This document shows positions 1 through 62,504 of a DNA stretch of 62,504 bases, piece by piece; within the stretch, counting starts at the first letter, position 1, and each line of letters opens with the position of its first letter. Made by a program: the position numbers and the translations under genes. The notes under the pieces were generated by a model that was not told where the DNA came from, searched no databases, and worked only from the letters and a program-made list of their open reading frames with translations. Origin of the DNA: a virus; the IMG/VR virus record IMGVR_UViG_3300021437_000019, positions 1-62,504 of that record. One strand, 5' to 3'.

Positions 1-657
1 TCACCAGGATGTCGTTGTCGCCACAACCCCTCAGAATCGTCAACTGCGGCTGGAGCACACCCTCGTACTCAACCAACCTCAGCATCTCGCTGATCTTGTC
101 GTAGCCGGCATACTGGCGATTCTTCTTTGCTGCCCGGAAGCTGATTCCGGCCTGGCGGTATCTGTCGAAGTAGTTCACGTCTTCGGCGGCATCGAAGTTC
201 TCGCCGGCGGGGTCCATCAAGTCAATGTAGGACTTTGGGAATAGCCCGAATTTCTCTACCGTCGATAGCTTCTCGACGTAATCGGTGCAACTTAGTCGCG
301 GTTGCTTGGCGTCATGCCTCTCCTGATTTTCTTCTTCTGGCCAGTAGGACCACGGCACAACCTTCCGGCCGTACTTGTTCACCATCAACCACACAAACGC
401 GTGGGCTCTCCGTGGATGTGGGTCACAGGCCAACCATACCGTCCACCTATCCGCAGTAATCGTTCCCCTGGGCGTAAGGAACTGATTTACGTAATGAATC
501 GATCGATCAAACTCCGGAAACCACTTCTGCCCGCCCCTCGCGTGGGCGTCAATCTCCATCTCGCGGTCCCACATCGTTACGTCGGGATACGCGCTCTTGA
601 GCAGGGCAACGCGCTCGGGCGTCATGCTCGGGTCAGCCAGGTAATGTAATCTTGCTA
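1..657. repeat. Imperfect direct terminal repeat, left copy
   Basis: This stretch aligns without gaps to 61848..62504. Reading by eye gives 21 mismatches in 657 positions (about 96.8% identity). In the terminase reading frame 20 of the changes are synonymous and one is Glu to Asp (Val-Glu-Lys here, Val-Asp-Lys in the other copy). This looks like two real strain variants of one gene at the two ends of a circularly permuted or concatemeric genome, not sequencing error and not an exact assembler overlap. Confidence 0.95.
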
Positions 658-718
658 CGGCTATTCCCGCCCCTGGTTTGCCTGCCGGGATTCGCCTTAC
701 GCTGAAACCGCGCACCAC
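1..718 (-). CDS. Terminase large subunit, C-terminal nuclease cistron (3' end cut by window edge)
   Basis: The frame runs from a GTG at 718 (second GTG at 715, first ATG at 625) to the window edge and continues, via the repeat, in 61651..62504. It holds the conserved beta-strand pattern RLHYLADPS just before the nuclease domain, then the RNase H-like nuclease region (acidic WLACDPHPR segment). The frame is closed by a stop just upstream of 727, so it cannot be read as one ORF with the ATPase half at 1221..1934. The start overlaps the end of the HNH gene by 22 nt. The GTG start is chosen because it keeps the conserved RLHY segment, which the ATG at 625 would lose. Family assignment is strong; the exact start is uncertain. 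Confidence 0.85.
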   Translation of the reverse strand, partial: MVRGFSVRRIPAGKPGAGIAVARLHYLADPSMTPERVALLKSAYPDVTMWDREMEIDAHARGGQKWFPEFDRSIHYVNQFLTPRGTITADRWTVWLACDPHPRRAHAFVWLMVNKYGRKVVPWSYWPEEENQERHDAKQPRLSCTDYVEKLSTVEKFGLFPKSYIDLMDPAGENFDAAEDVNYFDRYRQAGISFRAAKKNRQYAGYDKISEMLRLVEYEGVLQPQLTILRGCGDNDILV

Positions 719-1224
719 GCCGTCCCATTAAGCACATCCCGCATTGTGCTTCGGTGTACCCCGTACCGCGCCGCAAGAGACGCTATCTCTCCGTACTTGC
801 CAGTGAACTGATTTCGAGCCGCTTCAACCCGGGCTGGCGTTAATTTCGCCCGTCCATTCAGTTCACCGCGATTGCGATTGGGCGGCATAAGGCCGGTTCC
901 CCATGCGTGGAATTTGTTCTGAGAAGATGTCACCCACTCCAAATTAGTTAGCGCATTGTTCCAATGGTTGCCATCTATGTGATTGCCCTCATACCCCCCG
1001 GGGGGCCGAGGTCCGACAAAGTTCGTCAGCACGAGGTCATGAACATATCTGACGCGACGACCGCCCTCCCTGCACAAAGACACTGCTGGGTATTCCCATT
1101 GACCACTCGGCCAAGGTTTCAAAATTCGTCCAACCATTGGGCCGCAATCGCGCCGAACTTGCCCATGATCCGATACGCTGTAAATTCCTTCGTAACCAAC
1201 TATCGATTTCCAGGTTTCAATCAT
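697..1224 (-). CDS. HNH homing endonuclease (NUMOD4-HNH type) inside the terminase gene
   Basis: The 175-residue product starts with a NUMOD4-like segment (MIETWKSIVGYEGIYSVSDH), followed by the HNH core (GNHIDGNHWNNALTNLEWV, residues about 78-100) and a C-terminal helix-turn-helix-like DNA-binding segment (YGEIASLAARYGVHRSTMRDVL). The ATG at 1224 overlaps the TGA of the terminase ATPase half as ATGA, and the 3' end overlaps the nuclease half by 22 nt. A TTG six codons upstream is open but lacks support. There is no room for a ribozyme, so this is a free-standing homing endonuclease gene splitting terL, not an intron-borne one. Confidence 0.9.
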   Translation of the reverse strand: MIETWKSIVGYEGIYSVSDHGQVRRDCGPMVGRILKPWPSGQWEYPAVSLCREGGRRVRYVHDLVLTNFVGPRPPGGYEGNHIDGNHWNNALTNLEWVTSSQNKFHAWGTGLMPPNRNRGELNGRAKLTPARVEAARNQFTGKYGEIASLAARYGVHRSTMRDVLNGTAWCAVSA

Positions 1225-1934
1225 TGGGCAGGCACCGCGCAAGCAATAAGATCAAAGAACCAGCCCGGATAGGCGGAACTGAAGGCCAAGAGTTTTTGGG
1301 GCCTTGTGGACAGCGCATTAGCGTAAGCCTCGGCACCATTTGGATTGAATGCGCATTCGTCCATCACCACAATCGTTGGGTGCTCCGACCTGATCTTGTC
1401 AGGGTTCTTGCCGGGGAGGGCTTCGAACCAACCACCACCACCAAGCTCGAAGCGGTAGACGGCCTGATCCTCAACCGTCTTTTTCAATCGCGGCAACGGA
1501 TACAATTCTTTGAGGCGTTGGTCTTGCTGCGCATAGAGAACCTTGCAATACTCGATGCACTTCTCGGCGCGGTCCTGGTCGGGGCACCAGAAGATGCAGC
1601 TCGCCGGCTGGTGCGTTTGGATAAAGTGAACGCACTCACCGCACGCCCACCAAGTCGCCATAACCGTTCGACTCTTCTCGATGAAGAGTTTGTCTTCGGA
1701 ATGGAACAACTTGTGGAGTTCGTCGAAGTACGGGTAATCAGGGAGTGGTTTGTAAGGGTTCGCCGTGTCGTGCTCGTCCCAGGTCTTCGTCCACAGCCGC
1801 ATCCACGTCAATGATTGGACCAGCGGGGCTACGAGGGGCGAAGAGTCGAGCAAGAGTTGCTGCTGCTCTTTCGTCGCTGACGACCAAACATACGGTATTT
1901 CTTGAAGTTTGATCGTGACCCTTACTGGCGGCAT
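1221..1934 (-). CDS. Terminase large subunit, N-terminal ATPase cistron
   Basis: This cistron encodes the packaging motor ATPase. Visible motifs (numbering from the ATG at 1934) are the deviant Walker A EKSRTVMATW (86-95), Walker B TIVVMDE (187-193, D192/E193) and the coupling motif LAFSSAYPG (about 214-222). It ends a few residues later at a TGA that overlaps the HNH start as ATGA, so the nuclease domain is a separate protein (1..718). The ATG at 1934 overlaps the small terminase gene by about 200 nt; the ATG at 1802 (MRLWTKTWDEHD) is an alternative that keeps all motifs. The two halves must associate for a working terminase unless they are joined in some other way. Confidence 0.88.
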   Translation of the reverse strand: MPPVRVTIKLQEIPYVWSSATKEQQQLLLDSSPLVAPLVQSLTWMRLWTKTWDEHDTANPYKPLPDYPYFDELHKLFHSEDKLFIEKSRTVMATWWACGECVHFIQTHQPASCIFWCPDQDRAEKCIEYCKVLYAQQDQRLKELYPLPRLKKTVEDQAVYRFELGGGGWFEALPGKNPDKIRSEHPTIVVMDECAFNPNGAEAYANALSTRPQKLLAFSSAYPGWFFDLIACAVPAQ

Positions 1935-2337
1935 CCTCTATGTCCTTGTAGGCTCCGTGGGTGCGTAATGCCATGTCAACGGCGCTCACTTGAATGCTCA
2001 GAGCGTCTACTTCCCGCGAATCAAGCACTATCCCCTTGGAAGCAAAGAACTTAGTTTCCTTCGCATGGCGAAGCCTGTTCACGTCCTCGGCCAGACTCTC
2101 AAGGGTCAAGCCCATGCGGTGGAATACTTCAGGGGCCCTATCTCTGACCGCCTGCATGGCCTGAAACGCACCCTGCCGCGCCGATCGCGCCGGATACCCA
2201 ACCGCCCTACCGGCTTGGGCCAGCGTCTTCCCGGCCGCCACATGCCGTGCCACCTTCAAGTGCTTAGCGATTACTCGCTTCCGCCGCTTCTTCTTCGCCT
2301 TGGGCTCGTCACCTACGGGCTTTTGTTCTTCGCTCAT
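1738..2337 (-). CDS. Terminase small subunit
   Basis: The product is a 199-residue DNA-recognition subunit. A Lys/Arg-rich N-terminus (KAKKKRRKRV) is followed by a helix-turn-helix of the TerS kind (GKTLAQAGRAVGYPARSARQ, about residues 41-60) and helical segments ending near THGAY. The ATG at 2337 has GGCGAGG upstream; a TTG nine codons earlier is rejected. It overlaps the ATPase half of the terminase at its 3' end. A terminator-like hairpin and other stem-loops lie directly upstream, so the gene seems to head its own unit. Confidence 0.8.
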   Translation of the reverse strand: MSEEQKPVGDEPKAKKKRRKRVIAKHLKVARHVAAGKTLAQAGRAVGYPARSARQGAFQAMQAVRDRAPEVFHRMGLTLESLAEDVNRLRHAKETKFFASKGIVLDSREVDALSIQVSAVDMALRTHGAYKDIEDAASKGHDQTSRNTVCLVVSDERAAATLARLFAPRSPAGPIIDVDAAVDEDLGRARHGEPLQTTP

Positions 2338-2373
2338 TGTCCTCGCCTCGTCGGCGCTCCTCAAAAATCAATA

Positions 2374-2966: not shown

Positions 2967-3707
2967 TCAGCCCATGGCCTTGGCCAAAGGGCTTTCACTG
3001 ACTACTTTCGTCGCAAACCTGCGGATCGCTTCAAGTGGCGGCTCGTCTGACATCATGGCCGCCAAACCCTGGTCTTCCCCGAGACGCGCATGGATTTCTA
3101 TGACCTTCCATCCCGTGATGGCCTCTCGCAGTTCAACGCAGAATGGGCAATCGTCCAGACCAACCGCATGGACGGCGGCTAGGGCCGCATCTTGAATTCC
3201 GGGCATTTCCGGCGTCGCGCGTCGGTACGCAAGTATTCTTGTACCGTCTCCAGACCATTCTTGCAGTAGGGGGTGAAATGTAAGCGCCTGGCCGCCCACA
3301 ATTGCGCCGTCTATTTCCCATGCGGCACCATCCAGGAATTCTTCCATTACCCCAAAGTGCACAAGTTCTGGCAGGTACTTCGTCAACAATTCGGTGTACT
3401 CTGTCGGGTGGTAAAATCGAACTCCCTGATTCAAAGAACTTGCCGCCGCCTTGACAGCGATTCTACGATCTGCCCACAACTTGATCGGCTCCCATTTCGG
3501 ATTCAGCCCAGTACCACTGAGCGCCACGCACTGCGCCAACCTAGACGTGCAGGCGGCAGCGGCCCCAGGGAGAAGGCGTCGATGGTTCGCATAATCCGCA
3601 CTGAAAGCTACCTCCAAAACGGTTTCCTCGACCAATGGCATAACGAACAACCCGTCATTGCTCGAGCTTATTGGCCAGTGCCCTGACTCACCTACCCACT
3701 TAATCAC
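2967..3707 (-). CDS. Unknown protein with a CPFC motif, in the redox cassette
   Basis: I do not recognise this 246-residue protein. The GTG at 3707 overlaps the TGA of the flavodoxin-like gene as GTGA, which fixes the start (VIKWVGESGHWPI). Notable segments are WEIDGAIVGGQALTFHP near the middle and a CxxC-type DDCPFCVELREAITGW in the C-terminal third. The CPFC could be a redox or metal site. It is the last gene of a three-gene run with a PP-loop enzyme and an FMN-reductase-like protein, which suggests a shared oxidation/reduction or sulfur-related task. Confidence 0.7.
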   Translation of the reverse strand: MIKWVGESGHWPISSSNDGLFVMPLVEETVLEVAFSADYANHRRLLPGAAAACTSRLAQCVALSGTGLNPKWEPIKLWADRRIAVKAAASSLNQGVRFYHPTEYTELLTKYLPELVHFGVMEEFLDGAAWEIDGAIVGGQALTFHPLLQEWSGDGTRILAYRRATPEMPGIQDAALAAVHAVGLDDCPFCVELREAITGWKVIEIHARLGEDQGLAAMMSDEPPLEAIRRFATKVVSESPLAKAMG

Positions 3708-4399
3708 GACGCCAAGATTCCGTCTTTCCCGGTTTTGTCTTCCTGCACAGTCTCGCCGATTCGCGAGTCTTTCAGTAGATTCGCCCACGCCACTAAGTTG
3801 CGCGCCATTGTCGCCACCTCTTCACGGGTGTCCTTATTCTTGGTCACATCCGCAAGCGACGTGCCAGCCCATGTGGCAAATGCTTCCGGGGGCACCGTGA
3901 ATCCGAGCTGTGAGAACAAGCAGTAGAACCGCGACATGCAACTCTGGAAACCGTCGTCCGTCCCGGTGACGATGCATCCGCCGACCTTTCCGTACAGATC
4001 GGACTTGCCACTTTCGATGTACTCGTCATCGTATGTCGTCATGCGCTCGATGACTTTTTGTAGGTAGGAACTCGGCTGATTCCACCAAATCGGCGTGGCG
4101 AACACCACAATGTCGGCCGCTTCTATCTGCGCAAAGATTTCGTCCATCTGGTCGCTGTCATCGCCCGAATCGCGTGCCACACCGGGGATGATCTGAAAAT
4201 CCGGCAGGTAGGAAATGTCAACCTCGGCACCGCGCCGCCTCATCTCATTCGCCACCGCGACCGCAAGAGCAAGCGTATGACTTTCCATTTCATCTGGCTT
4301 GAGCGAACCAACAAGAATCAGCGCCTTAACACCATCGCCTGCTGGCTCGCGCACATTCTCTTTCTTTTGTGTATTGGGCGGTGAAAGCGGGATTGTCAT
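3704..4399 (-). CDS. NADPH-dependent FMN reductase / flavodoxin-like protein
   Basis: This 231-residue protein has a flavodoxin-fold pattern: first strand and phosphate loop KALILVGSLKPDEMESHTL (about 25-43), then DIVVFATPIWWNQPSSYLQKVIERM (about 96-120) with the TPIWW flavin-contact segment, and GGCIVTGTDDGF. Members of this fold bind FMN and reduce it or quinones with NAD(P)H. It lies 12 nt after the PP-loop gene and overlaps the CPFC gene by GTGA, so the three are one translational unit. Such enzymes are unusual in phages; the substrate cannot be told. Confidence 0.8.
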   Translation of the reverse strand: MTIPLSPPNTQKKENVREPAGDGVKALILVGSLKPDEMESHTLALAVAVANEMRRRGAEVDISYLPDFQIIPGVARDSGDDSDQMDEIFAQIEAADIVVFATPIWWNQPSSYLQKVIERMTTYDDEYIESGKSDLYGKVGGCIVTGTDDGFQSCMSRFYCLFSQLGFTVPPEAFATWAGTSLADVTKNKDTREEVATMARNLVAWANLLKDSRIGETVQEDKTGKDGILAS

Positions 4400-17845: not shown

Positions 17846-18697
17846 TCACTTCACTGTCGTAAGTCGCCCGTTTTTCACGAAATACCAAGTGTCGGCCTTG
17901 ATTCCCTTTTCTCCAACGTGCCCGACCAGAATTCGCGGGTGGTTGCCTTCGCCCAAATACGCGATGGCAAACGCACCGTTGGGACCGACTTTTACTTTGC
18001 CACCAATTCCAGCCACCATTGCAATTGTGTTTTCTCCTTGCGCTTCCGCAGTGCTGTAGCTCCCCGAGGACGCGCTCTTGCTGGAGCTCCCCGAGGACGC
18101 GCTCGTGCTGTAGTCCCCCGAGGACGCGCTCGTGCTGTAGTCCCCCGAGGACGCGCTCTTGCTGGAGCTCCCCGAGGACGCGCTCGTGCTGCAGTCCCCC
18201 GAGGACGCGCTCGTGCTGTAGCTCCCCGAGGACGCGCTCTTGCTGGAGCTCCCCGAGGACGCGCTCGTGCTGGAGCTCCCCGAGGACGCGCTCTTGCTGG
18301 AGCTCCCCGAGGACGCGCTCGTGCTGTAGTCCCCCGAGGACTTTTCTTTCGCCTGTTCGCACAACCACTTAAACCGAATCTGGGAGCACAGCACATTCGT
18401 GATCGCGCGCCCCATATCTCCGGCGAAAATAACTTTGCCCTTGTGGAACTTCACTTTTTGCTCGTCAATTTTCACTAGATCGGTTTCTTCTACTTCAACG
18501 ACTTGCCAGATGGTGTCCGGATTATCGCGAAGCAATGACCAATCGCCATCACCCCATAGCAAGCCGTGCAGGCCACCGCCGCATTCCGGCTTAGGATTCC
18601 AATCCGGCGCCTCAACTGGGCCGGATTTCGGCCAAATAAATCCTTTGTACGAAGTCATGTCGGAGTTGCAGTTACGAAGAATTAAAACCTTCCCCAT
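17846..18697 (-). CDS. Repeat protein with 9-residue Ser-rich repeats
   Basis: The 283-residue product has three parts. The N-terminal domain contains MTSYKGFIWPKSG and PECGGGLHGLLWGDGDWSLL, a pattern shared by phage proteins that carry such repeats. Then come eleven 9-residue repeats SSG(D/S)(Y/C/S)S(T/K)SA (about 27 bp each), which should form a beta-helix or solenoid. A C-terminal cap follows (GENTIAMVAGIGGKVKVGPN). The ATG at 18697 has GGGG upstream; motif copy 5 precedes it. Function unknown. Confidence 0.75.
   Translation of the reverse strand: MGKVLILRNCNSDMTSYKGFIWPKSGPVEAPDWNPKPECGGGLHGLLWGDGDWSLLRDNPDTIWQVVEVEETDLVKIDEQKVKFHKGKVIFAGDMGRAITNVLCSQIRFKWLCEQAKEKSSGDYSTSASSGSSSKSASSGSSSTSASSGSSSKSASSGSYSTSASSGDCSTSASSGSSSKSASSGDYSTSASSGDYSTSASSGSSSKSASSGSYSTAEAQGENTIAMVAGIGGKVKVGPNGAFAIAYLGEGNHPRILVGHVGEKGIKADTWYFVKNGRLTTVK
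18044..18340 (-). repeat. Eleven tandem 27-bp coding repeats
   Basis: Units such as TCCTCGGGGGACTACAGCAC follow each other with a 27-bp period and encode SSGxxSxSA. Changes between units fall mainly at three codons. The periodicity opens long frames on all other reading frames, which are artefacts. Confidence 0.9.
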
Positions 18698-27465: not shown

Positions 27466-27747
27466 ATGGCACTTACCAAACGGCTTGTCCACCTGCTAAT
27501 AATTTTGACCTGCTACTTTTACGTTCTTCCCGCGGGGTTTGCTTCACTACTTCTCTGGCTGCAGGCCGTCAACGTTGGCCACCAAGAAAGACTCTTCATC
27601 GTCCAAAATCTCCGCATGGCAGCGATTCTTTTACTTGTTGGCTGGCTAGCCTGGACTCTCTATGGCGTTGCGGTCATCGCCGCGCCTGGCGGTCGCCGCG
27701 GGATTGCGGCACTCCGCACCTTCTTCAGTCGTTCCGCTAAAATCTGA
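27466..27747 (+). CDS. Small plus-strand membrane protein
   Basis: The 93-residue product has hydrophobic helices LVHLLIILTCYFYVLPAGF plus SLLLWLQAV, and MAAILLLVGWLAWTLYGVAV. It fills the 280-nt gap before the giant gene and overlaps that gene's 3' end by 88 nt. No strong Shine-Dalgarno is seen. It could be an early superinfection-exclusion or holin-type protein. Confidence 0.5.
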   Translation: MALTKRLVHLLIILTCYFYVLPAGFASLLLWLQAVNVGHQERLFIVQNLRMAAILLLVGWLAWTLYGVAVIAAPGGRRGIAALRTFFSRSAKI

Positions 27748-30700
27748 TCGCCGATCTGTGCTCTGGCATCCCGCTCGGCTTGGTGAATGGCGTCCTCTGA
27801 CGCCTGAATCTTGTCTTCGTCGCTCATCTGCTTGTATTCTGGTGCATTAAACGTCTGTCGCAGGTAAGATTGCAGGTACGCCCCGCGCAGTTTTTGATAG
27901 CGATCTTGCTCATCTATGGACAATGCCACCTTGTAACCTTCCACCACTAAATGTTTTCCGGCGAAGCCAACATTCTTCAGCCCTAGCTTGTTCAGGCGAT
28001 CAAGTTCTGCGTCAATGGCGCTTTTTGGTTCGTCTTTTGAAAACCCTCCGGGGAACAGGGCCGCGAAACCGCTTGAACCTTCCTTCGTGGAAGGGCGCCC
28101 AAGAGTATCGAGTTTCGGTGCAACCGTTTTGCTCAACACCGGGAGGCCTGCCGCGATTCGTTCATACATCGTTTGCGGATTACGCACCGTAGGATCAAGT
28201 GCATCCCCGAGCGTACGCAGTGCGGACTCCATGGGAACAAACCCGCCGAGCCAACTAGAAACAAGGCGCCCGGAAAAACGTTCGGGATCCTGCATTGCAT
28301 CAAGGCCGCCCTTGAGTCCCCGCAAGAAGGATTCATCGGCGAGCGCCCGCCCCATCGCACCGCCAAATGCTAGAATCTGGTCAGTGGCGGGCATATCATT
28401 TTTCTTTTCGTTTCGGTCATGCCATGCAGCTACCGCCGCCGCCGTCAACGCAAATGGGCCGGCCGCCTTGTACGATACCCACCGGTTTCCAATTTTTATC
28501 GAGTACGGTTGTTTTCCTGAACGGTAGAACTCATCACGTCCAGCGGGATCATTCGGTGCCGCCCCTGTGAGCATTTTCTTGGCAGCAAAGTACGCGAACA
28601 GGCCCACGATGGCAGTACCGATCAGTGCGCGGCTGATGGTCTTTGTCGCTTCCGGGGATTTCGCGTGTTCGAAGTCGTTCAAACGTGCAAAGCCAAAGGG
28701 TGAATATCGGAGGGAGTGCTTCGTCAGATTGTAAGGAATCTGGACAAAGGGGATCACGAACCGCAACGGGTGTAGTCCTCCAATGAGAGGAATTCCCTTT
28801 GGGAGCGCCACTTTGTCGCGCATACTCATCAGGATGCGCGAAAGAACATCCGGGCGTTCCGTGAATGTTTGAAATTCACCGGCCTTCATCGCCGCGTCAA
28901 TCATGTCTTCGGTCGGATGCTGGATCAACTCAGCCGCACGGTTCTTCAACCCTTCGCCCTTCAATCCTTCACTGGCCGCTTGTCTTACTGCTTGGGCGTG
29001 CATCTCTCCTTGAAAGGCGAGCACCTGAAAGAACTTCGTCGCGGCGGAAAGAGCGCGCCCAGGCACGTTGAGCGGGTTCTTGATACCTCCCGGGAATTCG
29101 TACCTGCGCGGCAACTCAAAGGTGAGTGGATCGCCGGTGTCAAACCCGTGCATGATGATGTACGAGGCCTTGCGAATGCCTTCTGGCAGTGCGGATAGAT
29201 AGGATAGCGGCGCAACCAGCGCCTCACGGAGAGTCGTCTCGCTCTTGCGGCCCTGAATTGCCGCCATGATCTTATCCACAGGGACATCAACAAAACGTCG
29301 CGCCGTTTCAACGATCCCGAGCGAAACATCCCCCAACACTTTTTTTATTGGCGTGCGCGGACTTGAAAGCACGTTCGCAATCCAGTAGGCTTCAATCTTC
29401 TGTGCCGTTGTCCAATGCTTCTGCGAACGCAGGAAGTTGTTCAGTGCCACGGAATCATCTTCTGGAATCTCAGCCAACCGCCGCGCGGCGTCTTCGCTCA
29501 ATTCCTTCCCGCCAAGGGCCTCGAGCACGCGCTCATGTGCCGTCTGGTCTTTGCCTTCGAGGGCTTTCGCTACCATCCGTTGCTGTGACAGCGCCCGACC
29601 TGCTTCTGCGACGGCACCGGAAACCGCTTTCTGGATACCATCATGACGCAAGAGAGCTTCCTGGAATGCCAGAACGTTATCAACGTTCCCATTGGTCCTA
29701 ACCTTCGCGGCCGCCTCGCGGACCTTCTGCGCACTGGCGATCAGCATGGATCGCGCCGCCTGCAACTCTTCGGCATTCAGGGCCGTCCCAGCCTTCATGC
29801 TTTTGAGGTCTTTTTCAGTGAACATCCCCTCTTCGACAAGCTTCTTCGCCATGTCACGCGTCTCGTTGAATGGGATACTCCCGCGGCGTTGCTCATTGAA
29901 CTCCGGAGCATTCTCTTTAGCCGCCCTGCGAATCTCGTTGAGTACATCCTCGGGCGCGTTCAGCTTGTCAAGGCGGATGTTGCCCGCGTGTTCCACCGGG
30001 CGCTTGTCAGGCGCGGTTCGGGGAACGCCAGACGATTCAACCCTTGCACCTACTGGAATAGGTTCTCCCGACGCAGGTACGCGTTTGCCGCGAAGTGCCC
30101 TGAATGCCCGATAAATCAGGTGCCCGAGTTCGATAAGTGGATTGAAGCCGAAACCGGCTTCGGGATTCTCCGGGTTGACGATGCGCCGGGGGATTTCGGA
30201 AAGCCCCTCCCCCTCTCCTGGTACGACATGGGAAGGCGCAATCTCTTTGAAATTATCGTCAAACTCCTGCCCCTCGCGGGCGCCGGCCATGGTCTTATCT
30301 TCTTTGTTCACGGCGAGGGCTTCGTTCAACTCCTTCTGCTTGGCAAGCAGTTTGTTGAGTTGCGCCTGCTTGTTAAATGGTTTTTCGAGTTCCGCCTTGC
30401 GCGCTTCCAGGTCGCGCCGCAAGGCTTTAATATCCTCTTCCCTGTTCGCGGCGTAGGTTTCCAGGTTCCCGATGTTCCGCTCTGCGCTCTGGATCGTGCC
30501 AATCGGACTTTCATGATTCACCGTGAATCCGTGCGAGGATTTCCCGTACAGGTAGGGGTTTCCACTTCCATCGGCCTCAATGTCGAATCCCTGGAAGGTT
30601 CCAACCTTCATCCGGCCACTGCCGCGGTTAGCCTCGACGGCAGCATTCAGTGCGGCACCGGCATCCTTCCGGTCGGTGTAGGTTTTCTTCCCAACCGTCA

Positions 30701-33700
30701 TCTGGAATTCTTCGCGCTTGTTTGCATCGCGCGTTTTTATGTCTTGCAGGATGGCGTCCCGTGACGCTTCAGTGCCAGAAATCCGCTCCGGGATCTGCGC
30801 GAGCCGAATCCGGTTCGTGATCGCCGACTGTTCGTGAATCTGTTTCAACTTCTGTAGGCGGTCCACATCGGCATCCGTTTGGACCTTTTCGAGCACGCGC
30901 TTGTCGCCGGTGGCAATCGCGGCCGCCTCGGCATAACTCAGCGTCGCACCGTCCACGTCTTCGAGTTCGCGCTGATCATAGCCGTGCTGCATCATCTCTT
31001 TGATAAAAGACGCCTTGCGCGCGATCGTGCTCCACATATAGGCGTCAAACGTGCCCTGAGTCACGTAGCGATAGATTTGCACGGTTGGGTTGGTATTTCC
31101 TTGCCGGATGATGCGGCCTTCCCGCTGTTCGATGTCTGACGGGCGCCACGGAGCATCTACGTGGTGAAGGGCCAAAAGGCGCTCCTGAATGTTCGTTCCA
31201 ACCCCCATCTTATCGCTCGAACCAATAATGACGGCCTTCTCGCCGGAGTTCACGGCATCGAATAGTGCCTGCTTGGCGGCGTCGCTTTTCGCGTCGTGGA
31301 TGAACGCAACCTGGTCGGCCGGCACGCCCATGCCAACCAGTTTGTTTTTCAGGTCCGCGTAGGCGTTGAACTGGCCGCGTTTCTTCCCGGCATCGCTCGG
31401 GGTCATCAAATCGAGCATGACGGCTTGGGCTCGCTTCGTGCTCCGCGTTTCATGGTAGATGTCGGCAACTTTCTTCGCCGCCGCGGCAATCTTGCTCTCG
31501 CCGTCGTCGTTTGCGCCCGGGACCATCGAGCGGTAGTCTAGCGCGACCTTCCGCCCCTCGCTCGTGATCTTGAGCATATTATCTTCGGTGGGATCGACTT
31601 CTTTCCTGCGGATGGCCTTGGCGCGCTCGCCGAGTGTCTGGATGTAGTCAAGTACCCGCTGGCTGGCGGGAACCTCGATTACCTTCGCCTTCCCGCCCTC
31701 GACGTCCGGCACCTTGACGATGCCCTCCAAGTCCTCCGGGTGAATCACATCGGCGGTCTGCCGGAACATGCGCTTGAGTTCCGGCACGTTCATAAACTTG
31801 GCGAAGCGGGTGCTCACGCGAAACTTTGTCGGATCCTCCGGCGAAACTTCCATGTTCTGTACGGTATTCCCGAAGGCGGCTGCCCAGGAATCGAAGTGCG
31901 ACAGGTTCCCGGCCTCAAGGCGCCCTTCATCGAGATACCGCATCATCGTGTAAATCTCGGCCATGGTGTTGCTGATCGGCGTGCCGGTTGCAAACGCCAC
32001 ATTCGCACCATTGTTCAGGTCGGAAATGTACTTCGTTTTCAAATACATATCGAACGCGCGCTGCGCGTCTGACTTCGGGATGCCATTGATATTCCCCATC
32101 TTCGTCGAGAAGAAGAGGTTCTTATACATATGCGCTTCGTCAACGTAAAGCGCGTCCACGCCGGTATCCTCAAAATTAATGGTGTTGTCTTTGCGTTCCC
32201 TGTTGGCCGCACGCTCCATTCGGACCTTGATGCGCTCTTTGGCCTTCTCCAACTCCTTCACCGTGCGCCGGTTACTCTGCCCGCGCTCGTCTTTCAGTTC
32301 TCGAATGTGATCTTCGAGCATGTCGAGTTGCTTCTGTGCGTAGCGCTGCAAGGTCTCGATGCTGACGGGAAGTAACCCAAAACTCGCGTGTGGAACAATT
32401 ACCGCATCCCAATCGCCAGTGGCAATGCGGCTCATAATCGTCTTGCGATTCTTTGCTTCAAAGTCCTCTTTTGAGGCCGCAAGAATGCGCGCCTGTGGGT
32501 AGAGTCGCAGGAAGTCCGCGCCCCATTGCTCGACCAGGTGGTTCGGAACGACGATCATGGGCTTCTTCGCCAGACCGAGGCGCCTCTTTTCCATGGCCGA
32601 GCCGATGATCGTGTACGTCTTGCCGGCACCGACAACGTGTGCCAGAAGGGTGTTGCCGCCCACAACGCTGCGCCAGATGGCATTCATCTGGTGCGGCCGC
32701 ATGGTGATGCCAGCAGATTTTCCGGGGAGTGTCAGGTGGGAGCCATCATAGTTTCGGTCAACGATGTTGTTCCGATTCTCGTTGTACCACTTCGTTAGTC
32801 GTTCGGCCCGGTCGGGGTCTTTGAACATCCACTTCGAGAACTCTTCCTCGATCTGTTCAAGTTTCTCGCGCGCGGCGAGGGTTTCTTTCTCATTGACGCT
32901 GCGCTTCCCGTCGGCAGCCTCATCATAAACCGTTGGGCGCTTGAGGTTTAACGCACCCTCGATGATCTCCAATGGGCGCATCCGCGCCGTGCCCCACTTC
33001 GTCTGTGCGGCCTCATTGTACCGGGCTTGCCCGTTTTCTAATTTCCAGATCGCTTCGCTCGCAATATGTCGGACGGTCGTGCGGTTGCCGTACCGCTGAT
33101 GACCCAAAATCGCTTCGTCGATGAAGTTCGCGATGTCTTCTTCGGGAATCCACGGCGTACCGAGTCGCACGCTGATCTCGCCGGGTTCTAGGTCTCGCGG
33201 CTGAACCTGCTTCAATGCCTCGACATTTTGCGTGAAGTCTTTGTCCAACTTCGCCGCTTCTTCCGCATCGCGCAGTTTCGCGCGCACGTCGCCAGAGAGG
33301 TATTCATCCTTCGTTTCCCAGTGTCCCTGCGGTGCCTGAAAAGCCAATCCCGCCGCGCGAAGTTCTGTCCTAATCTCGTCTTCTGGCCGCCCGGAAATCT
33401 TCGACATATAATCGAAGTCAATCTTCCCTTTCTCCGCGAGGGATGCCGGGAGCGCGTCCGCGACGTTGTCAACGCTCGTTACTTCCTTCCGCGGCGCGAT
33501 GGTCTGTTTGAAGAACACATCGGCCTTGCTAGCCGTGCGCTCTTTCGCGTTCCACTTCTCAAGCGCCAGAAGTAGCGGTGCGTCTGGATCTTCTGCGACG
33601 ATCCGGTAATTCTTTGGCTGGTTGAGGTAGCCGTGTTTCTTGACAAAAGCATCGTAGGCGCGGTTCAGGCGGCCGCGGATCGCCGTCAAGTCTTTCCCTG

Positions 33701-36700
33701 GCCTTCCATTCCCTTCGGCCTGGAATAGTTCGCGCGTGACATCGCGGATGCCAAGCATTTGTTTCAATGGCTCAACGTTCGCCTTTGGAAATTCCGCCCG
33801 ATGGACCATCTGCCCATCGCGGTTTTGGAAAACCCTGCCATCTTGGACCTTGTACCCCCACGGCTTCGTGTCACCCCAATCGGGGATGCTTTCGACGGTC
33901 GCGGCCCTGGTCACGGACGCCGGTGCTTCGTGCTCGCCCATGACTTGTTCGGGCAGCTTCTCGATCGCGCCCTTGAGCAATCCCGGCAGAGGCTCTTTTC
34001 CGGCCTTCAACTCATAGTTCTGCCCATGCCCATACATCGTCCCTTCGAGGGTATGTTCTCCGAGCGCCATCGACGGATGGTCGTGGAAATACTCATTTAC
34101 TTGGGCTTCGCCGCCAGGAAGTTCCATTTCTTTGGTGGCGACGAAGTTCTGGCCGCCGGGCTTTTCGCCCGTGCCGCGCTTGCGGAAGAACAGCATATCT
34201 GTCGTGACTTCGGTTCCAGCGTTCTTTTGGAACGCGCCACCGGGCAGGCGAATCGCGCCAATCAGGTCTGCGTGGTCAAGGAAGGCTTGCCGTGCGCGGT
34301 TGTCGTAAGCATCGAGGGAGTGGTGCGAAGTAATGATCGCCGCGAGGCCGCCCGGGCGCACCTTGTCAAGCATCCGAGCGATGAAATAGTTGTGAATGCT
34401 CTCGGTGAGATACTTCTTGCCTTTATAGGTAGGATCGTTGACAGGGTAGTTGCCGAATGGGACGTTCGAGATTGCAAGGTCGTAGAAGTCGTTCAGGCCC
34501 TTGAGTTCTTGGAAACGCTGAATGCGTACATCGGCATTCTGATAAAGTTGGCGAAGAATCTTGCCGGAAGTCTGGTCAAGTTCAATCGCGGTTTTCTTCG
34601 ATCCCGCGAAGATGTCGTCGGGCATTAAGCCGAGGAAATGGCCGATACCAGCCGAGGGTTCCAAGATGCGACCAGCCCTGAACCCAAGGCGGCTGACTGC
34701 ATCCCACATGGCGGTAACAACTTCAGGGGAAGTGTAGTGCGCGTTCGTGGTGGAACGTACTGCGGAGTCGTATTCTTCTTCTGTGAGGAGTTTCTTCAGT
34801 TCGGCGCGTTCATTGCGCCACTTGTCGTGGTTCTTGTTGAGGAGGTTCCCTGTCCACCCCCAACCACTGTAACGGACTAATTTGGCTTGTTCGTCGGGTG
34901 TGGCGTTGCGCCCGGAGGCTTCAAGTTCCTTGAGAACGCGGATGGCGGCGACGTTGAGTCGGTACTTTTCTTGAATGGAGCCTTCGCCAATGTGGTCGGT
35001 TTCGGTGATCCGGTAGTCGTTACCAGACTGGCCGGATCTGGACTGGACGGCTGGCTCTCCCCCAGGTGCGGCTGGTCCTCCTCGCTCGGCAACAGGTAAT
35101 GGTTCAACTTCGCCTCCCTCTGTGCCTCGAACGGGTGTATTCCGTTCTGGATGCTGCGCGCCGACTCCTCGACCGCTCGGTTCGCCGCGTTCTGCGCCCA
35201 ATCGTCCAGCTTGCCGGCTTGCGACAACTGGCTCGCCATTTTCGGCCGGTACTTTTCGAGGTGCTTCTTCGCCTCGACCGCCCATGGACTCAATTGCTTG
35301 GACATTGGCAGGCTCCTTCTCTGGCTGGATTGTGCGCTCCGGTTCTTCGTTTGTCAAGTGACTCAAGGGCACGAATTCGATACGGCCAATAGGCACCACG
35401 CCAGAACGGCCGGGGATACGCATGACGGCTTGCTGATCGACATCGACAATGGCCTCGCCGCGGCCCGCGTCCACTGACTGAATCTTCCCGGTGAGTTTCT
35501 GCCCCTTGGAATTGGTATAGCTTACGCGGTCGCCCTTTCTAAACTTTACACTTTCAGACGCGGCACCTTCGGCGGTCCGGGCAACCTCGGCAGGCTTGGT
35601 GGATGTATTTGCGGGGGCCGTGGCAACTTCGGCAACCCGATTTTCGGCAGGCTTGGCTTTGACGGCTTCGGACTTTTCGGCTGCTTCGGCAGTAGGCTTT
35701 TCGCCCTTTGCAAGAACTGGTTTACCTGCTGCGGACTCGCGTACTGGTTCTGCATTGACAGCCTCCATCTTGTCCATCAGCGCATGGCCCTCTGTCAGTT
35801 CGGCCACTGGAATCTGATCACCGGCCACCGCGCGCGCCTCAATGGATGCAACTTTTTGCTCAAGTTCGTGTTGGTCCATCGCCCGAAGAATTTCATCGGA
35901 TGAGGTCGATTCCGTTCCAATCTCCCCAAGATCATGTACACCAACGGCGGGGTGCACTTCCTCTGCGGCCTTGGACGCCGGCTGCCCCTTGGTCGGGAGT
36001 GCCTTCGCGCCTTCGTTAAGCGTGGTTTCGGTGCCATTGGCCTGCCTGGACACAATCCGATCATACGGGCCAGCCTTGGCGTCCACCGCTTCCGGGCCGA
36101 TGAGCGGCGTTTCCTTGCCCGTGCGCGTGTCGATCCTCACCCGCTGGACACCACTCGCTTTTTCATTGCGTGTGCGGCTGATTGCTTCAAGGCTTGCACC
36201 AGACTCCGCGCTGGCATTCGGAAGTCCCTGTACTGGCCGTGTCTCCGCAGACAACGGCGTTTCCGTGGCGGAAGTTTCCGGCTTGGGGATAGAGGCTTGC
36301 CGTCCCGCGACGACGTTCTCGGGCGTCTCTATGCCGATTTGCGCGCCGGGGAACTGGTCGGCAAGTTTCTGTGCTTGCGCCTGAACCGCTTCGGGCTTGC
36401 TGGTATCGACTACTGAGGCTTTCTGTTCTGTGCCCCTCGCGTCGCGGGCGACTACTGCGGCGGGTTGGCCTTGCGCGGCTGCCTCTTTCGTTTGGACATT
36501 GCCAAGGAGTTCACCGTACGTGCCATTCTTGACCGCCTTTCGAATGTCCGCTGGCGTCACACTGTCGTCGTGGTAGTACGTTCCCGCGCCTGGCTTGTCG
36601 CCCTTTACAATGGTCACATTGGCATCTTCCGGGGGTGCGGGGATCGTCTGCGTGCCCTTCGGGAAGTACACAACCTTGTTCGTACCCTTCGCCAGCGCAT

Positions 36701-37982
36701 CCACCTGGGCGTTGAGAGTTTCCGGCTTTTCGGGAACGGTCGCTTCACCGGCACCTACGGATGCGGGTGCACCGGGAAGTTGTGCCGGTTGAGGCGGTTG
36801 CTGTGGACGCTCAGGAACTTGCGGCGTGCGCTTCGCGGATACTTCCTGCCCTTCTGTCGCTTTCCGCGCCGCCTCAAATGTTTCTGCCTTGACCTGCTTC
36901 TCCGCGCCACCACCACGAACTGCGCCAACCGCTGCGGCACCACCAAGAGCGGCTTGCCCCAATCCTTCCAGAACCTTCGAAGCGTCTTTATCCTTCACGC
37001 CTTCGACGATGTTTCCGCCGCCCTGTGCGGCGAAGCCGCCCGCAGCGGCTTGTCCGGCAACCTTTCCAGCCGTCGCGGCTTTCTGCGCCTTTGCTGCCGC
37101 GATGATGGTCTCCTTCATCTTCGTTTCCACGTCAGCGAGCTCGGCACCCGTAGCTCCCGCTGCGCGCATCGCTTCATACTCTTGCGCTATCTTCGCCGCT
37201 CTGCCGCCAAACTGCCCGGCCTTCGAAAGCGCAACTGTCTCTCCAAGGCCGAGCGCGGAAACACCGAGCCCAATAGGAGACAAAAACATATCGTTAAGAG
37301 TTTTGACGGTATCGGCCGTCGCACCCGCAAAGAAGGCTTCGCCGCGTGTCTTGGGAATGTCGGGACGGTTCAGAAATTCGCTTGCAAGGTCGGTCAGTTC
37401 ACCGACATTCGAAGTGCGAACTCCAAGAGGGAATGGGTTGGTCGGTCCGGGTTCCGTAAAAGCGGGAAGTGGCATCTTGCGTGAGCCGGATTGGAGGTCA
37501 GTGGAGAATTGATCCTGGGCACGCTGCGCCTCTTCAATCCCCTCGGCGGTAGTCGGGCCCCCACGCTGCGCGCTGGCTCCAATCTCGGCGGGGTTCAATT
37601 TCCTTGTACGCTCGGTTTCAGCGGCAAGAGCTGCGCGCTCGGCCGCTTGCTGCTCCTCGACGGTTTGCGGAGTCTGAGAAGGATCGTAGTAGCGATTCGT
37701 GAACGGATTTAGCGGAATTTTTGTGGCATCAACAAAAGGAGGATTCTGCGGAGGGGGCAGCTTCGTCATCGGCTGTCCCATCTTCGCTGCGCGCGTGCTC
37801 AGTGGGGTTGTCTGTGTTTCGGGGGATTGTCCTGTGGCAAGTTCGTTCAGAGTTGGGGTGCGAAGGTTTGTTCCCGGCTTCGGCCCGCGGATCGCTGAAA
37901 GGATTGGGTCGTCTTCTTCCTCGTCAGCAACCGCAACTCCACCGCCGCCCTGAATCGCTTTCAGGATAGGGTCGTCTGCCAT
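27660..37982 (-). CDS. Giant polyvalent (DarB-like) protein: methyltransferase + helicase + LPD38
   Basis: The 3440-residue protein is likely carried in the virion and injected with the DNA. Rough layout: disordered Ala/Pro/Lys-rich N-terminus (1-1000); N6-type methyltransferase with motif I LEPSAGIGHFLG (about 1107) and SNVPFGNYP in place of NPPF (about 1169); SNF2/DEAD-like helicase with Walker A HVVGAGKT (about 1781), YVDEAHMYKN (about 1944), ATGTPISNTMAE and motif VI QREGRIIRQGN (about 2284); coiled coils; then a hydrophobic segment and an LPD38-like C-terminal domain (about 3130-3350). Relatives such as P1 DarB protect incoming DNA from restriction. AGGAC precedes the ATG. Confidence 0.88.
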   Translation of the reverse strand: MADDPILKAIQGGGGVAVADEEEDDPILSAIRGPKPGTNLRTPTLNELATGQSPETQTTPLSTRAAKMGQPMTKLPPPQNPPFVDATKIPLNPFTNRYYDPSQTPQTVEEQQAAERAALAAETERTRKLNPAEIGASAQRGGPTTAEGIEEAQRAQDQFSTDLQSGSRKMPLPAFTEPGPTNPFPLGVRTSNVGELTDLASEFLNRPDIPKTRGEAFFAGATADTVKTLNDMFLSPIGLGVSALGLGETVALSKAGQFGGRAAKIAQEYEAMRAAGATGAELADVETKMKETIIAAAKAQKAATAGKVAGQAAAGGFAAQGGGNIVEGVKDKDASKVLEGLGQAALGGAAAVGAVRGGGAEKQVKAETFEAARKATEGQEVSAKRTPQVPERPQQPPQPAQLPGAPASVGAGEATVPEKPETLNAQVDALAKGTNKVVYFPKGTQTIPAPPEDANVTIVKGDKPGAGTYYHDDSVTPADIRKAVKNGTYGELLGNVQTKEAAAQGQPAAVVARDARGTEQKASVVDTSKPEAVQAQAQKLADQFPGAQIGIETPENVVAGRQASIPKPETSATETPLSAETRPVQGLPNASAESGASLEAISRTRNEKASGVQRVRIDTRTGKETPLIGPEAVDAKAGPYDRIVSRQANGTETTLNEGAKALPTKGQPASKAAEEVHPAVGVHDLGEIGTESTSSDEILRAMDQHELEQKVASIEARAVAGDQIPVAELTEGHALMDKMEAVNAEPVRESAAGKPVLAKGEKPTAEAAEKSEAVKAKPAENRVAEVATAPANTSTKPAEVARTAEGAASESVKFRKGDRVSYTNSKGQKLTGKIQSVDAGRGEAIVDVDQQAVMRIPGRSGVVPIGRIEFVPLSHLTNEEPERTIQPEKEPANVQAIESMGGRGEEAPRKVPAENGEPVVASRQAGRLGAERGEPSGRGVGAQHPERNTPVRGTEGGEVEPLPVAERGGPAAPGGEPAVQSRSGQSGNDYRITETDHIGEGSIQEKYRLNVAAIRVLKELEASGRNATPDEQAKLVRYSGWGWTGNLLNKNHDKWRNERAELKKLLTEEEYDSAVRSTTNAHYTSPEVVTAMWDAVSRLGFRAGRILEPSAGIGHFLGLMPDDIFAGSKKTAIELDQTSGKILRQLYQNADVRIQRFQELKGLNDFYDLAISNVPFGNYPVNDPTYKGKKYLTESIHNYFIARMLDKVRPGGLAAIITSHHSLDAYDNRARQAFLDHADLIGAIRLPGGAFQKNAGTEVTTDMLFFRKRGTGEKPGGQNFVATKEMELPGGEAQVNEYFHDHPSMALGEHTLEGTMYGHGQNYELKAGKEPLPGLLKGAIEKLPEQVMGEHEAPASVTRAATVESIPDWGDTKPWGYKVQDGRVFQNRDGQMVHRAEFPKANVEPLKQMLGIRDVTRELFQAEGNGRPGKDLTAIRGRLNRAYDAFVKKHGYLNQPKNYRIVAEDPDAPLLLALEKWNAKERTASKADVFFKQTIAPRKEVTSVDNVADALPASLAEKGKIDFDYMSKISGRPEDEIRTELRAAGLAFQAPQGHWETKDEYLSGDVRAKLRDAEEAAKLDKDFTQNVEALKQVQPRDLEPGEISVRLGTPWIPEEDIANFIDEAILGHQRYGNRTTVRHIASEAIWKLENGQARYNEAAQTKWGTARMRPLEIIEGALNLKRPTVYDEAADGKRSVNEKETLAAREKLEQIEEEFSKWMFKDPDRAERLTKWYNENRNNIVDRNYDGSHLTLPGKSAGITMRPHQMNAIWRSVVGGNTLLAHVVGAGKTYTIIGSAMEKRRLGLAKKPMIVVPNHLVEQWGADFLRLYPQARILAASKEDFEAKNRKTIMSRIATGDWDAVIVPHASFGLLPVSIETLQRYAQKQLDMLEDHIRELKDERGQSNRRTVKELEKAKERIKVRMERAANRERKDNTINFEDTGVDALYVDEAHMYKNLFFSTKMGNINGIPKSDAQRAFDMYLKTKYISDLNNGANVAFATGTPISNTMAEIYTMMRYLDEGRLEAGNLSHFDSWAAAFGNTVQNMEVSPEDPTKFRVSTRFAKFMNVPELKRMFRQTADVIHPEDLEGIVKVPDVEGGKAKVIEVPASQRVLDYIQTLGERAKAIRRKEVDPTEDNMLKITSEGRKVALDYRSMVPGANDDGESKIAAAAKKVADIYHETRSTKRAQAVMLDLMTPSDAGKKRGQFNAYADLKNKLVGMGVPADQVAFIHDAKSDAAKQALFDAVNSGEKAVIIGSSDKMGVGTNIQERLLALHHVDAPWRPSDIEQREGRIIRQGNTNPTVQIYRYVTQGTFDAYMWSTIARKASFIKEMMQHGYDQRELEDVDGATLSYAEAAAIATGDKRVLEKVQTDADVDRLQKLKQIHEQSAITNRIRLAQIPERISGTEASRDAILQDIKTRDANKREEFQMTVGKKTYTDRKDAGAALNAAVEANRGSGRMKVGTFQGFDIEADGSGNPYLYGKSSHGFTVNHESPIGTIQSAERNIGNLETYAANREEDIKALRRDLEARKAELEKPFNKQAQLNKLLAKQKELNEALAVNKEDKTMAGAREGQEFDDNFKEIAPSHVVPGEGEGLSEIPRRIVNPENPEAGFGFNPLIELGHLIYRAFRALRGKRVPASGEPIPVGARVESSGVPRTAPDKRPVEHAGNIRLDKLNAPEDVLNEIRRAAKENAPEFNEQRRGSIPFNETRDMAKKLVEEGMFTEKDLKSMKAGTALNAEELQAARSMLIASAQKVREAAAKVRTNGNVDNVLAFQEALLRHDGIQKAVSGAVAEAGRALSQQRMVAKALEGKDQTAHERVLEALGGKELSEDAARRLAEIPEDDSVALNNFLRSQKHWTTAQKIEAYWIANVLSSPRTPIKKVLGDVSLGIVETARRFVDVPVDKIMAAIQGRKSETTLREALVAPLSYLSALPEGIRKASYIIMHGFDTGDPLTFELPRRYEFPGGIKNPLNVPGRALSAATKFFQVLAFQGEMHAQAVRQAASEGLKGEGLKNRAAELIQHPTEDMIDAAMKAGEFQTFTERPDVLSRILMSMRDKVALPKGIPLIGGLHPLRFVIPFVQIPYNLTKHSLRYSPFGFARLNDFEHAKSPEATKTISRALIGTAIVGLFAYFAAKKMLTGAAPNDPAGRDEFYRSGKQPYSIKIGNRWVSYKAAGPFALTAAAVAAWHDRNEKKNDMPATDQILAFGGAMGRALADESFLRGLKGGLDAMQDPERFSGRLVSSWLGGFVPMESALRTLGDALDPTVRNPQTMYERIAAGLPVLSKTVAPKLDTLGRPSTKEGSSGFAALFPGGFSKDEPKSAIDAELDRLNKLGLKNVGFAGKHLVVEGYKVALSIDEQDRYQKLRGAYLQSYLRQTFNAPEYKQMSDEDKIQASEDAIHQAERDARAQIGDQILAERLKKVRSAAIPRRPPGAAMTATP
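35538..35553 (-). promoter_or_regulatory. Dispersed motif variant inside the giant gene
   Basis: The minus strand AAGTGTAAAGTTTAGA differs from the consensus at one base. It encodes Ser-Val-Lys-Phe-Arg in the linker-rich N-terminal part. It may be coincidental or mark an internal site. Confidence 0.35.
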
Positions 37983-49168: not shown

Positions 49169-49579
49169 CTATCGCCAAGTCACCGTGATCTCGCCCGGGG
49201 TCGTACCCGCAGTCAAGACGCACAGGCCGGTGCTGAAATCCAGATTGAAATCCAGCGATGTGCTGGCTGCGGGTACGGTCACGGCCGTAGCACCGAAAAT
49301 TGCTGGCGCGGCACAACTCGTGTTATCGAAAACCTGAATCGTCCACGCCGAGCCCGGCCCGGAAACGATGAGCTTGCCCAGGGTTCCCGTACTCGATTTG
49401 ATCTGAGTGCTGGCATTGGTCGTAATCTTTGAGTATGAGAAAGGTGCAATGATGATTCGTTGCTGCCCATCCGCGCGCATCCCGTTCGAGAGTACGAAGC
49501 CGGCCTGACCCTCGACGATCCCGACAATAACAAGTGCCGCCAAGGAGATTGCGGCAAGGGAAAGCAGTATTCTTTTCAT
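49169..49579 (-). CDS. Exported small beta protein
   Basis: The 136-residue product starts with a signal peptide (MKRILLSLAAISLAALVIVG...) and has a Thr/Ser/Ala-rich beta body (TNASTQIKSSTGTLGKLIVS). It overlaps the methyltransferase gene as ATGA, so it belongs to the accessory cassette. Function unknown. Confidence 0.65.
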   Translation of the reverse strand: MKRILLSLAAISLAALVIVGIVEGQAGFVLSNGMRADGQQRIIIAPFSYSKITTNASTQIKSSTGTLGKLIVSGPGSAWTIQVFDNTSCAAPAIFGATAVTVPAASTSLDFNLDFSTGLCVLTAGTTPGEITVTWR

Positions 49580-50175
49580 GCTCTAACTCCCCGGGCCAGC
49601 CCAATGGTATAGCTGCCCATTTTGAATTTTTCACCGTCGCGCATGTTGTGGCCACCCGCATGAAACCAGCCCCGCAGGTCATCCTCGCTGAACGACCAGC
49701 AGTGATCGCCGCCGGACAGGCCCGAATCCAATGCCTCATCCAGCGGATGCGAAATCACCGACGCGCGGCATTTCGGCAGCCACTTCTTGACCAGGGTAGC
49801 TGGGTCTTCCAGGTGTTCTAGGACTTCACAGAACACCACCACATCTGCATCGAAAGGCTCTACTTCCTCAATCGAACCATCTCTGACGAGTGCGAACGGG
49901 TACAACTCCCTCGCCGTGGCGATGCAACCCTGATTACACTCGACGCCAATGACTTCGTGGTAGTCGGATAGCGGCCCGGAGATGTCCAACGTCCCGCAAC
50001 CCAATTCCACAATCGTTTTCTTCCCGGGCCCGAGTTCGACCAGGGCAAAGGTCAGCATCCGCCGCGCCTTCTTTACGCGATCCTCTTGCACGCCGTCACG
50101 GGAGTACACGCGAACGGGGTTCAACTTGTGGTGCTCGATTCCTTCCACTACAGCCCGCACCTTCATCTGTTTCAT
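49576..50175 (-). CDS. Class I SAM-dependent methyltransferase
   Basis: The 199-residue protein has motif I IVELGCGTLDISG (about 55-67), an acidic end of the second strand (VIGVECNQGC) and VVVFCEVLEHLEDP as motif IV region, like small-molecule or glycan methyltransferases (3-O type). It is coupled by ATGA to the radical SAM gene upstream and the exported protein downstream, so it may methylate the product of the cassette. Confidence 0.82.
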   Translation of the reverse strand: MKQMKVRAVVEGIEHHKLNPVRVYSRDGVQEDRVKKARRMLTFALVELGPGKKTIVELGCGTLDISGPLSDYHEVIGVECNQGCIATARELYPFALVRDGSIEEVEPFDADVVVFCEVLEHLEDPATLVKKWLPKCRASVISHPLDEALDSGLSGGDHCWSFSEDDLRGWFHAGGHNMRDGEKFKMGSYTIGLARGVRA

Positions 50176-61650: not shown

Positions 61651-62504
61651 CTAATACCCGATGGCGCCGTAGATCGGTTCCCATCCTCCAACCGACTGCC
61701 TCGGCTCAATGAATCGCGGTTCATCCAGCAGGATGTAACTCAGGCAGTCGATCAGGTGCTTGTCCTTGTTCAACGGATCGGGTGGCGGATCCTTCTCTGC
61801 TGCAGCCACGCCCTTGAGTTCTTTGTATCGCAGCGCCTCGATCTGACTCACCAGGATGTCGTTGTCGCCACAACCCCTCAGAATCGTCAACTGCGGCTGG
61901 AGCACACCCTCGTACTCAACCAGCCTCAGCATCTCGCTGATCTTGTCGTAGCCGGCATACTGCCGATTTTTCTTTGCTGCCCGAAAGCTGATTCCGGCCT
62001 GGCGGTATCTGTCGAAGTAGTTCACGTCTTCGGCGGCATCGAAGTTCTCGCCAGCCGGGTCCATCAAGTCAATGTAGGACTTTGGGAAGAGTCCGAATTT
62101 CTCTACCGTCGATAGCTTGTCGACGTAATCGGTGCAACTTAGTCGCGGCTGCTTCGCGTCATGCCTCTCCTGATTTTCTTCCTCTGGCCAGTAGGACCAC
62201 GGCACAACCTTCCGGCCATACTTGTTCACCATCAACCACACGAACGCGTGGGCTCTTCGGGGATGTGGGTCGCAGGCCAACCATACCGTCCACCTGTCCG
62301 CAGTGATCGTTCCCCTGGGCGTAAGGAACTGATTTACGTAATGAATCGAGCGATCAAACTCCGGAAACCACTTCTGGCCGCCCCTCGCGTGGGCGTCAAT
62401 CTCCATCTCGCGGTCCCACATCGTTACGTCGGGATACGCGCTCTTGAGCAGGGCAACGCGCTCGGGCGTCATGCTCGGGTCAGCCAGGTAATGTAATCTT
62501 GCTA
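61651..62504 (-). CDS. Terminase large subunit, C-terminal nuclease cistron (5' end cut by window edge)
   Basis: This is the second, slightly different copy of the nuclease half. Its 5' end is cut by the window edge; the part shared with 1..657 reads the same protein but for one Glu/Asp change. It adds the true C-terminus: EKDPPPDPLNKDKHLIDCLS and DEPRFIEPRQSVGGWEPIYG, with the late acidic KHLID region of the nuclease active site. In the circular genome it joins 1..718. Whether this strain's copy is also interrupted by the HNH gene cannot be seen. Confidence 0.9.
   Translation of the reverse strand, partial: ARLHYLADPSMTPERVALLKSAYPDVTMWDREMEIDAHARGGQKWFPEFDRSIHYVNQFLTPRGTITADRWTVWLACDPHPRRAHAFVWLMVNKYGRKVVPWSYWPEEENQERHDAKQPRLSCTDYVDKLSTVEKFGLFPKSYIDLMDPAGENFDAAEDVNYFDRYRQAGISFRAAKKNRQYAGYDKISEMLRLVEYEGVLQPQLTILRGCGDNDILVSQIEALRYKELKGVAAAEKDPPPDPLNKDKHLIDCLSYILLDEPRFIEPRQSVGGWEPIYGAIGY
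61848..62504. repeat. Imperfect direct terminal repeat, right copy
   Basis: This is the counterpart of 1..657, gapless with 21 mismatches. The mismatches are spread over the first 530 positions of the alignment; the last 130 are identical. Confidence 0.95.

Follow-up and report, generated by a model that had tools for sequence, protein, structure and literature searches.

The large terminase subunits (TerL) of T4 (gp17), D6E, Sf6 (gp2) and P74-26 share one order of parts, an ASCE ATPase core, a coupling motif, a lid and an RNase H nuclease, and in all four phages these parts form a single polypeptide. The lid coordinates movement between the domains (PMC7617512), and reviews take the covalent arrangement of ATPase and nuclease to be general or even universal among tailed phages (PMC7824862, PMC7617512). 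In Aeromonas phage Aeh1 the essential nrdA gene is carried as two cistrons, nrdA-a and nrdA-b, around the free-standing HNH gene mobE with no intron, and the split relative to related phages is ascribed to insertion of mobE (PMC2988022). The DNA polymerase gene of Aeromonas phages 25 and 44RR is also split (43A/43B); an endonuclease gene goes with the split in one phage and different sequence in its relative. For gene 43 of phage 25 it was suggested that the split may have come first, with the homing gene invading later (PMC2988022). The terL gene of Campylobacter phage IBB_35 is reported to be interrupted by an intein and by an intron enclosing an endonuclease, with involvement of an HNH mobE-like gene (PMC3322345).

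Here we analyse a window of 62,504 nucleotides, the whole of the stretch from IMG/VR record IMGVR_UViG_3300021437_000019. As in IBB_35 its terL is interrupted and an HNH gene is involved, but there is neither intein nor intron; as in Aeh1 two cistrons surround a free-standing HNH gene. Unlike the single-chain terminases above, the ATPase core and the lid plus nuclease appear to be encoded by separate cistrons. The features of the locus are as follows.

1738..2364, minus strand: probable small terminase ORF, upstream, assigned from its position only
1221..1934, minus strand: TerL ATPase cistron, 237 aa, assigned from a phrog_2 match, motifs and fold
1221..1224, minus strand: intercistronic junction ATGA, in which the ATPase stop TGA (1223-1221) shares bases with the HNH start ATG (1224-1222)
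697..1224, minus strand: free-standing, homing endonuclease-type HNH gene with NUMOD4 and HNH_3, 175 aa
1..718, minus strand: 5′ part of the cistron for the TerL lid and RNase H nuclease, starting at GTG 718 or 715 and running out of the left end of the window
61651..62504, minus strand: second haplotype copy of the nuclease cistron, including its 3′ end, at the right contig end, with the stop at 61651
1..657, no strand: terminal redundancy of the assembly, 97% identical to 61848-62504, so that the genome closes on itself

All three ORFs lie on the minus strand where a preliminary description had placed them, and both the ATGA overlap of the ATPase stop with the HNH start and the GTG start of the nuclease half inside the end of the HNH gene were confirmed. 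The ATPase cistron matches PHROG_2 'terminase large subunit' (E=1.9e-7) and contains a Walker A-like motif, KSRTVMATW, that departs from GK[ST], a Walker B motif, VVMDEC, and the coupling motif SSAYPGWFF, after which the stop codon is next. The nuclease ORF begins with GTG at 718 or 715, ~20 nt inside the HNH 3′ end. Homology with relatives (MKGLSARR / VRGFSVRR) suggests that 715 is the better start, and no clear Shine-Dalgarno sequence was found at the nuclease start in the window. The family nuclease profile matches the 5′ part of this cistron with E=4e-116. Because the window ends overlap by 657 bp (97%), the cistron recurs at the right end (62502-61651), where its stop at 61651 is reached. 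There the second haplotype ends 58 nt inside the nuclease gene, near the HNH junction, and the assembly may have broken at this point for want of an HNH in the other haplotype. The small terminase candidate has no family matches; it overlaps the ATPase cistron by 197 bp (1738-1934) in a different frame, and a similarly long overlap of these two ORFs is seen in the related lineages L003, L004, L005 and L011.

The HNH ORF contains HNH_3 (Pfam, E=4e-11) and NUMOD4 (E=2e-6) domains and matches phrog_59 (E=4e-42). Its nearest annotated relative is an HNH of phage D6E (39.7%), and no close relatives were found among viral contigs. Both domains sit in a self-contained ORF outside any intron. Moreover, neither an intron nor an intein was found at the locus, terL sequence flanks the ORF directly, and the insert gave zero Rfam matches for a ribozyme even at E<=5. 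These results bear out the earlier statements that there is no room for an intron ribozyme, the HNH ORF occupying the whole insert, and that a free-standing HNH gene lies between two separate cistrons. The HNH was most likely acquired as a free-standing mobile gene of predicted homing type. In some cos phages packaging is known to involve HNH genes that lie beside the terminase genes, and the HNH could instead be such a packaging-associated partner, of the HK97 gp74 type. We hold this to be highly improbable: the combination of NUMOD4 and HNH_3 is of homing type, the best relatives are free-standing HNHs and a junction HNH is absent from all relatives of the window.

The preliminary description had the insertion falling at the boundary between the ATPase and nuclease domains. 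The break comes earlier, directly after the coupling motif (SSAxPGWFF) and before the lid subdomain. The next conserved block of the continuous gene of lineage L005/L006, GLTLKKIP...LHYTADPTMTPERVAELK...WDREMEI, comprising strands and helices, is found on the nuclease cistron. Thus the ATPase lid appears, from alignments and secondary structure rather than superposed coordinates, to be encoded with the nuclease; therefore the ATPase protein would need a partner to complete its catalytic module. Global profile alignment to RM378/MMP17 was unreliable beyond the coupling motif. The AF2 model of the continuous L006 protein (mean pLDDT 81.5, pTM 0.58) matched T4 gp17 over its full length (E=3e-13), with a low full-length TM because domain placement is uncertain, and matched the P22 nuclease domain 4dkw with TMt 0.67. 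The window ATPase protein modelled alone gave pLDDT 87.4 and pTM 0.87, with the T4 gp17 ATPase as best PDB match. Against the T4 ATPase domain, the window cistron aligned over 216 columns (TMt 0.47) versus 294 (TMt 0.57) for L006, that is ~80 fewer gp17 columns. The RNase H-like nuclease motifs with their acidic triad (CDPH, LMDPAG and HLIDC) are conserved. Every lineage retains the catalytic motifs, with the one exception of the divergent L012, whose nuclease motifs vary.

Relatives were sought with five scans blind to split status, two with protein profiles and three with DNA patterns (KSRTxMATW, HYxADPxMT and PDKIRSEHP), and with two further, earlier scans using the window's own parts as queries. 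Near-identical pairs (L005/L006 and L046/L048) were collapsed into single lineages. All relatives recovered are metagenomic contigs, from different datasets; the 15 contigs represent 13 lineages beside the window (16 contigs and 14 lineages with it). The ATPase and nuclease parts are adjacent in 14/14 lineages. They are separate ORFs, broken at the same place, in 13 of the 14, namely the window and 12 lineages without a junction HNH, and only L005/L006 encodes both domains in one polypeptide, a single ORF of 547 aa. An ATPase profile search of genome contigs found no prophage relatives, and none of the 12 stretches with KSRTxMATW in these contigs scored as a window-type TerL. Annotated phage relatives of the window TerL are distant and continuous, being one polypeptide in all those checked.

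The contents of the junction between the two cistrons in the other split lineages are as follows.

L003 and L023: bare ATGA overlap
L011: 19-bp overlap
L012: TAA, followed directly by ATG
L004: ATGA, then a 51-aa Cys-rich ORF (MNCQECGHVHKEEDF...) at L004:4723-4878, in the slot of the HNH, with no family match
L027: ATGA, then an ORF of 58 aa that resembles part of a DNA methyltransferase
L044: GTGA, then a 45-aa membrane-like ORF
L047: ATGA, then an ORF of 143 aa, nucleoside deoxyribosyltransferase-like by a sub-threshold Pfam match, and two small ORFs
L045: a 183-aa ORF
L028: three small ORFs
L026: ~1.3 kb, including a glycosyltransferase-like ORF
L046/L048: ~1.4 kb with several ORFs

This one junction is empty in some phages and carries unrelated genes in others; an HNH occurs in it once. 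The ATPase stop lies in ATGA (the window, L003, L004, L023, L027 and L047) or GTGA (L044) in seven lineages, and inserts of ~115 bp to 1.4 kb part the cistrons in nine. The L044 and L047 junctions also share related small ORFs of membrane-like type (...AVVxEIRD...), and one such ORF may be a conserved junction gene of this subclade. Frameshifting that fuses the two products was considered and ruled out, given that inserts of up to 1.4 kb part the cistrons in many lineages.

The same observations bear on whether the split is real. Each sequence is a single metagenomic contig, and L003 taken alone is compatible with a one-base error, so errors that place false stops or frameshifts in a terL that is really continuous have to be weighed, as has recoding of a stop. 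Such an explanation has next to no chance of being correct: the split is present in 13 lineages of different datasets, nine carry inserts of ~115 bp to 1.4 kb, and the stop sits on the next start codon as ATGA or GTGA. Recoding of the stop is of no help because the frame changes between the cistrons.

The preliminary description attributed the split to insertion of the HNH gene, citing Aeh1 nrdA, and proposed a search for HNH-less relatives with one continuous terL. That search yielded L005/L006 alone, which is nested in the split clade, and the 12 HNH-less lineages split at the same position speak against the HNH as the cause. For a homing gene to have divided a continuous terL, with the other lineages later losing or replacing it, there is the exact placement of the HNH at the junction, the continuous gene in the near relatives L005/L006 and the precedent of mobE in nrdA (PMC2988022). 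However, the HNH is sporadic, occurring in the window only (1 of 13 split lineages); the sisters L003 and L004 and all outgroup lineages are split without it, and many losses, each leaving the gene split, would be needed. We therefore regard this history as very improbable. Because the HNH is present only in the window, and other junctions are bare or hold unrelated genes, it most likely entered a junction that already existed. The likeness to Aeh1 thus stands for how the system works and fails for its origin, since in Aeh1 the split is ascribed to mobE (PMC2988022) whereas HNH-less relatives of the window are split too. Gene 43 of phage 25 is the better parallel: the comparison of terL genes favours a homing gene entering a prior split, as proposed for 43A/43B (PMC2988022), although that gene encodes a DNA polymerase and its split is seen in far fewer lineages.

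In trees built from the joined ATPase and nuclease sequences, L005/L006 comes out with full support as the sister of window + (L003, L004), and every other row is split; L003 and L004 have 74-75% identity to the window ATPase cistron. The continuous pair is still nested when distant continuous terminases serve as outgroups, in trees with long outgroup branches and some supports <95. On the rooted tree the history costs one fission and one fusion, versus at least three fissions. One split followed by one fusion is therefore the cheapest account of these sequences, its direction coming from parsimony and distant outgroups. The ATPase proteins of L011, L023, L026, L028, L045 and L046 have in common a tail with (D/E/P)WP, and a common origin of the split is favoured because of this tail. 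The alternative is that independent fissions occurred at one permissive loop and were later filled differently, L005/L006 keeping the ancestral continuous gene. The varied geometry of the junctions (ATGA, 19-bp overlap, TAA|ATG, inserts up to 1.4 kb) and the continuity of TerLs in general are in keeping with this, but the shared tail and the greater number of fissions are not, and we consider parallel fission unlikely, if still a serious contender. It concerns history alone; a two-protein motor would be unchanged. Under single or parallel splits, the sequences are most simply explained if the HNH was unneeded for the split and arrived late in the window lineage.

Between the window, L003 and L004, dN is ~0.17-0.26 with synonymous sites near saturation in both cistrons. 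The two haplotype copies in the window differ at 21/657 bases, 20 of the 21 being third codon positions, and by a single amino acid. Both proteins are kept, because dN is low against near-saturated synonymous change and the haplotype differences fall at third positions; these substitution patterns indicate that purifying selection acts on both cistrons. As both are conserved, a two-subunit packaging motor is likely.

We therefore consider it highly probable that the window and its relatives have an old, stable two-gene TerL with a gene-accumulating junction, entered later by the HNH, whose products assemble noncovalently into the motor. A lineage of tailed phages would long have encoded TerL in two adjacent, mostly translationally coupled genes, giving one protein of ~240 aa with the ATPase core and another of ~300 aa with the lid and the RNase H nuclease. 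Both would be made from one mRNA, the overlapping stop and start codons coupling their translation, and would assemble noncovalently through the core-lid interface, the lid of the nuclease protein closing the ATPase of its partner. The junction accepts and accumulates accessory genes; a homing-type gene, NUMOD4-HNH, would have entered it late in the window lineage, by homing, keeping the ATGA overlap of its start with the gene upstream and having its C-terminus encoded within the 5′ end of the nuclease gene. A different arrangement, in which the nuclease-lid protein is a separable motor subunit that can detach and return, for instance joining for the cuts that begin and end packaging, seems to us improbable; if true, translocation would be uncoupled from cleavage in a manner closed to a one-chain terminase.

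Elsewhere in the window, a probable portal gene of the head module, assigned from position with no family matches, is also in two cistrons (55006-53351 and 53354-52755, minus strand; 551 and 199 aa) joined by ATGA, for which a one-base error is possible; its homologues are continuous in L005/L006, L022, L023 and L028. Positions 27660-37982 (minus strand) encode a 3440-aa protein with DarB-like antirestriction and methyltransferase-helicase matches (phrog_10089, 1683 bits), which also matches an internal virion protein. At least 11 copies of a 27-bp tandem repeat lie at 17997-18401 inside a 589-aa ORF (LQHERVLGE repeats). The phage also carries genes for a Radical SAM/SPASM protein, a methyltransferase and an NADPH-dependent FMN reductase-like protein (50172-51215, 49576-50175 and 3704-4399, minus strand).

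Nuclease-only pieces of TerL are already catalogued, unlabelled as two-gene systems: PHROG 6672 and 5653, both 'terminase large subunit' with profiles of 145 and 199 positions, match only the nuclease part of L026, and do so weakly. Separate terms for terminase genes with the ATPase domain and for those with the nuclease domain already exist in some annotation schemes. Split terL genes have thus probably been seen before in isolated cases. Our search of open papers turned up no large terminase encoded by two genes in which intron and intein are both absent; IBB_35 comes closest. What is new here is the stable, lineage-wide two-gene arrangement, the position of the break relative to the predicted lid and the probable late entry of the HNH. 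A natural lineage with a two-gene TerL would offer a ready-made test of whether force can be transmitted without a covalent linker, and of the way in which the nuclease is restrained during packaging. Moreover, a homing gene found between the two halves of a gene need not have caused their split.
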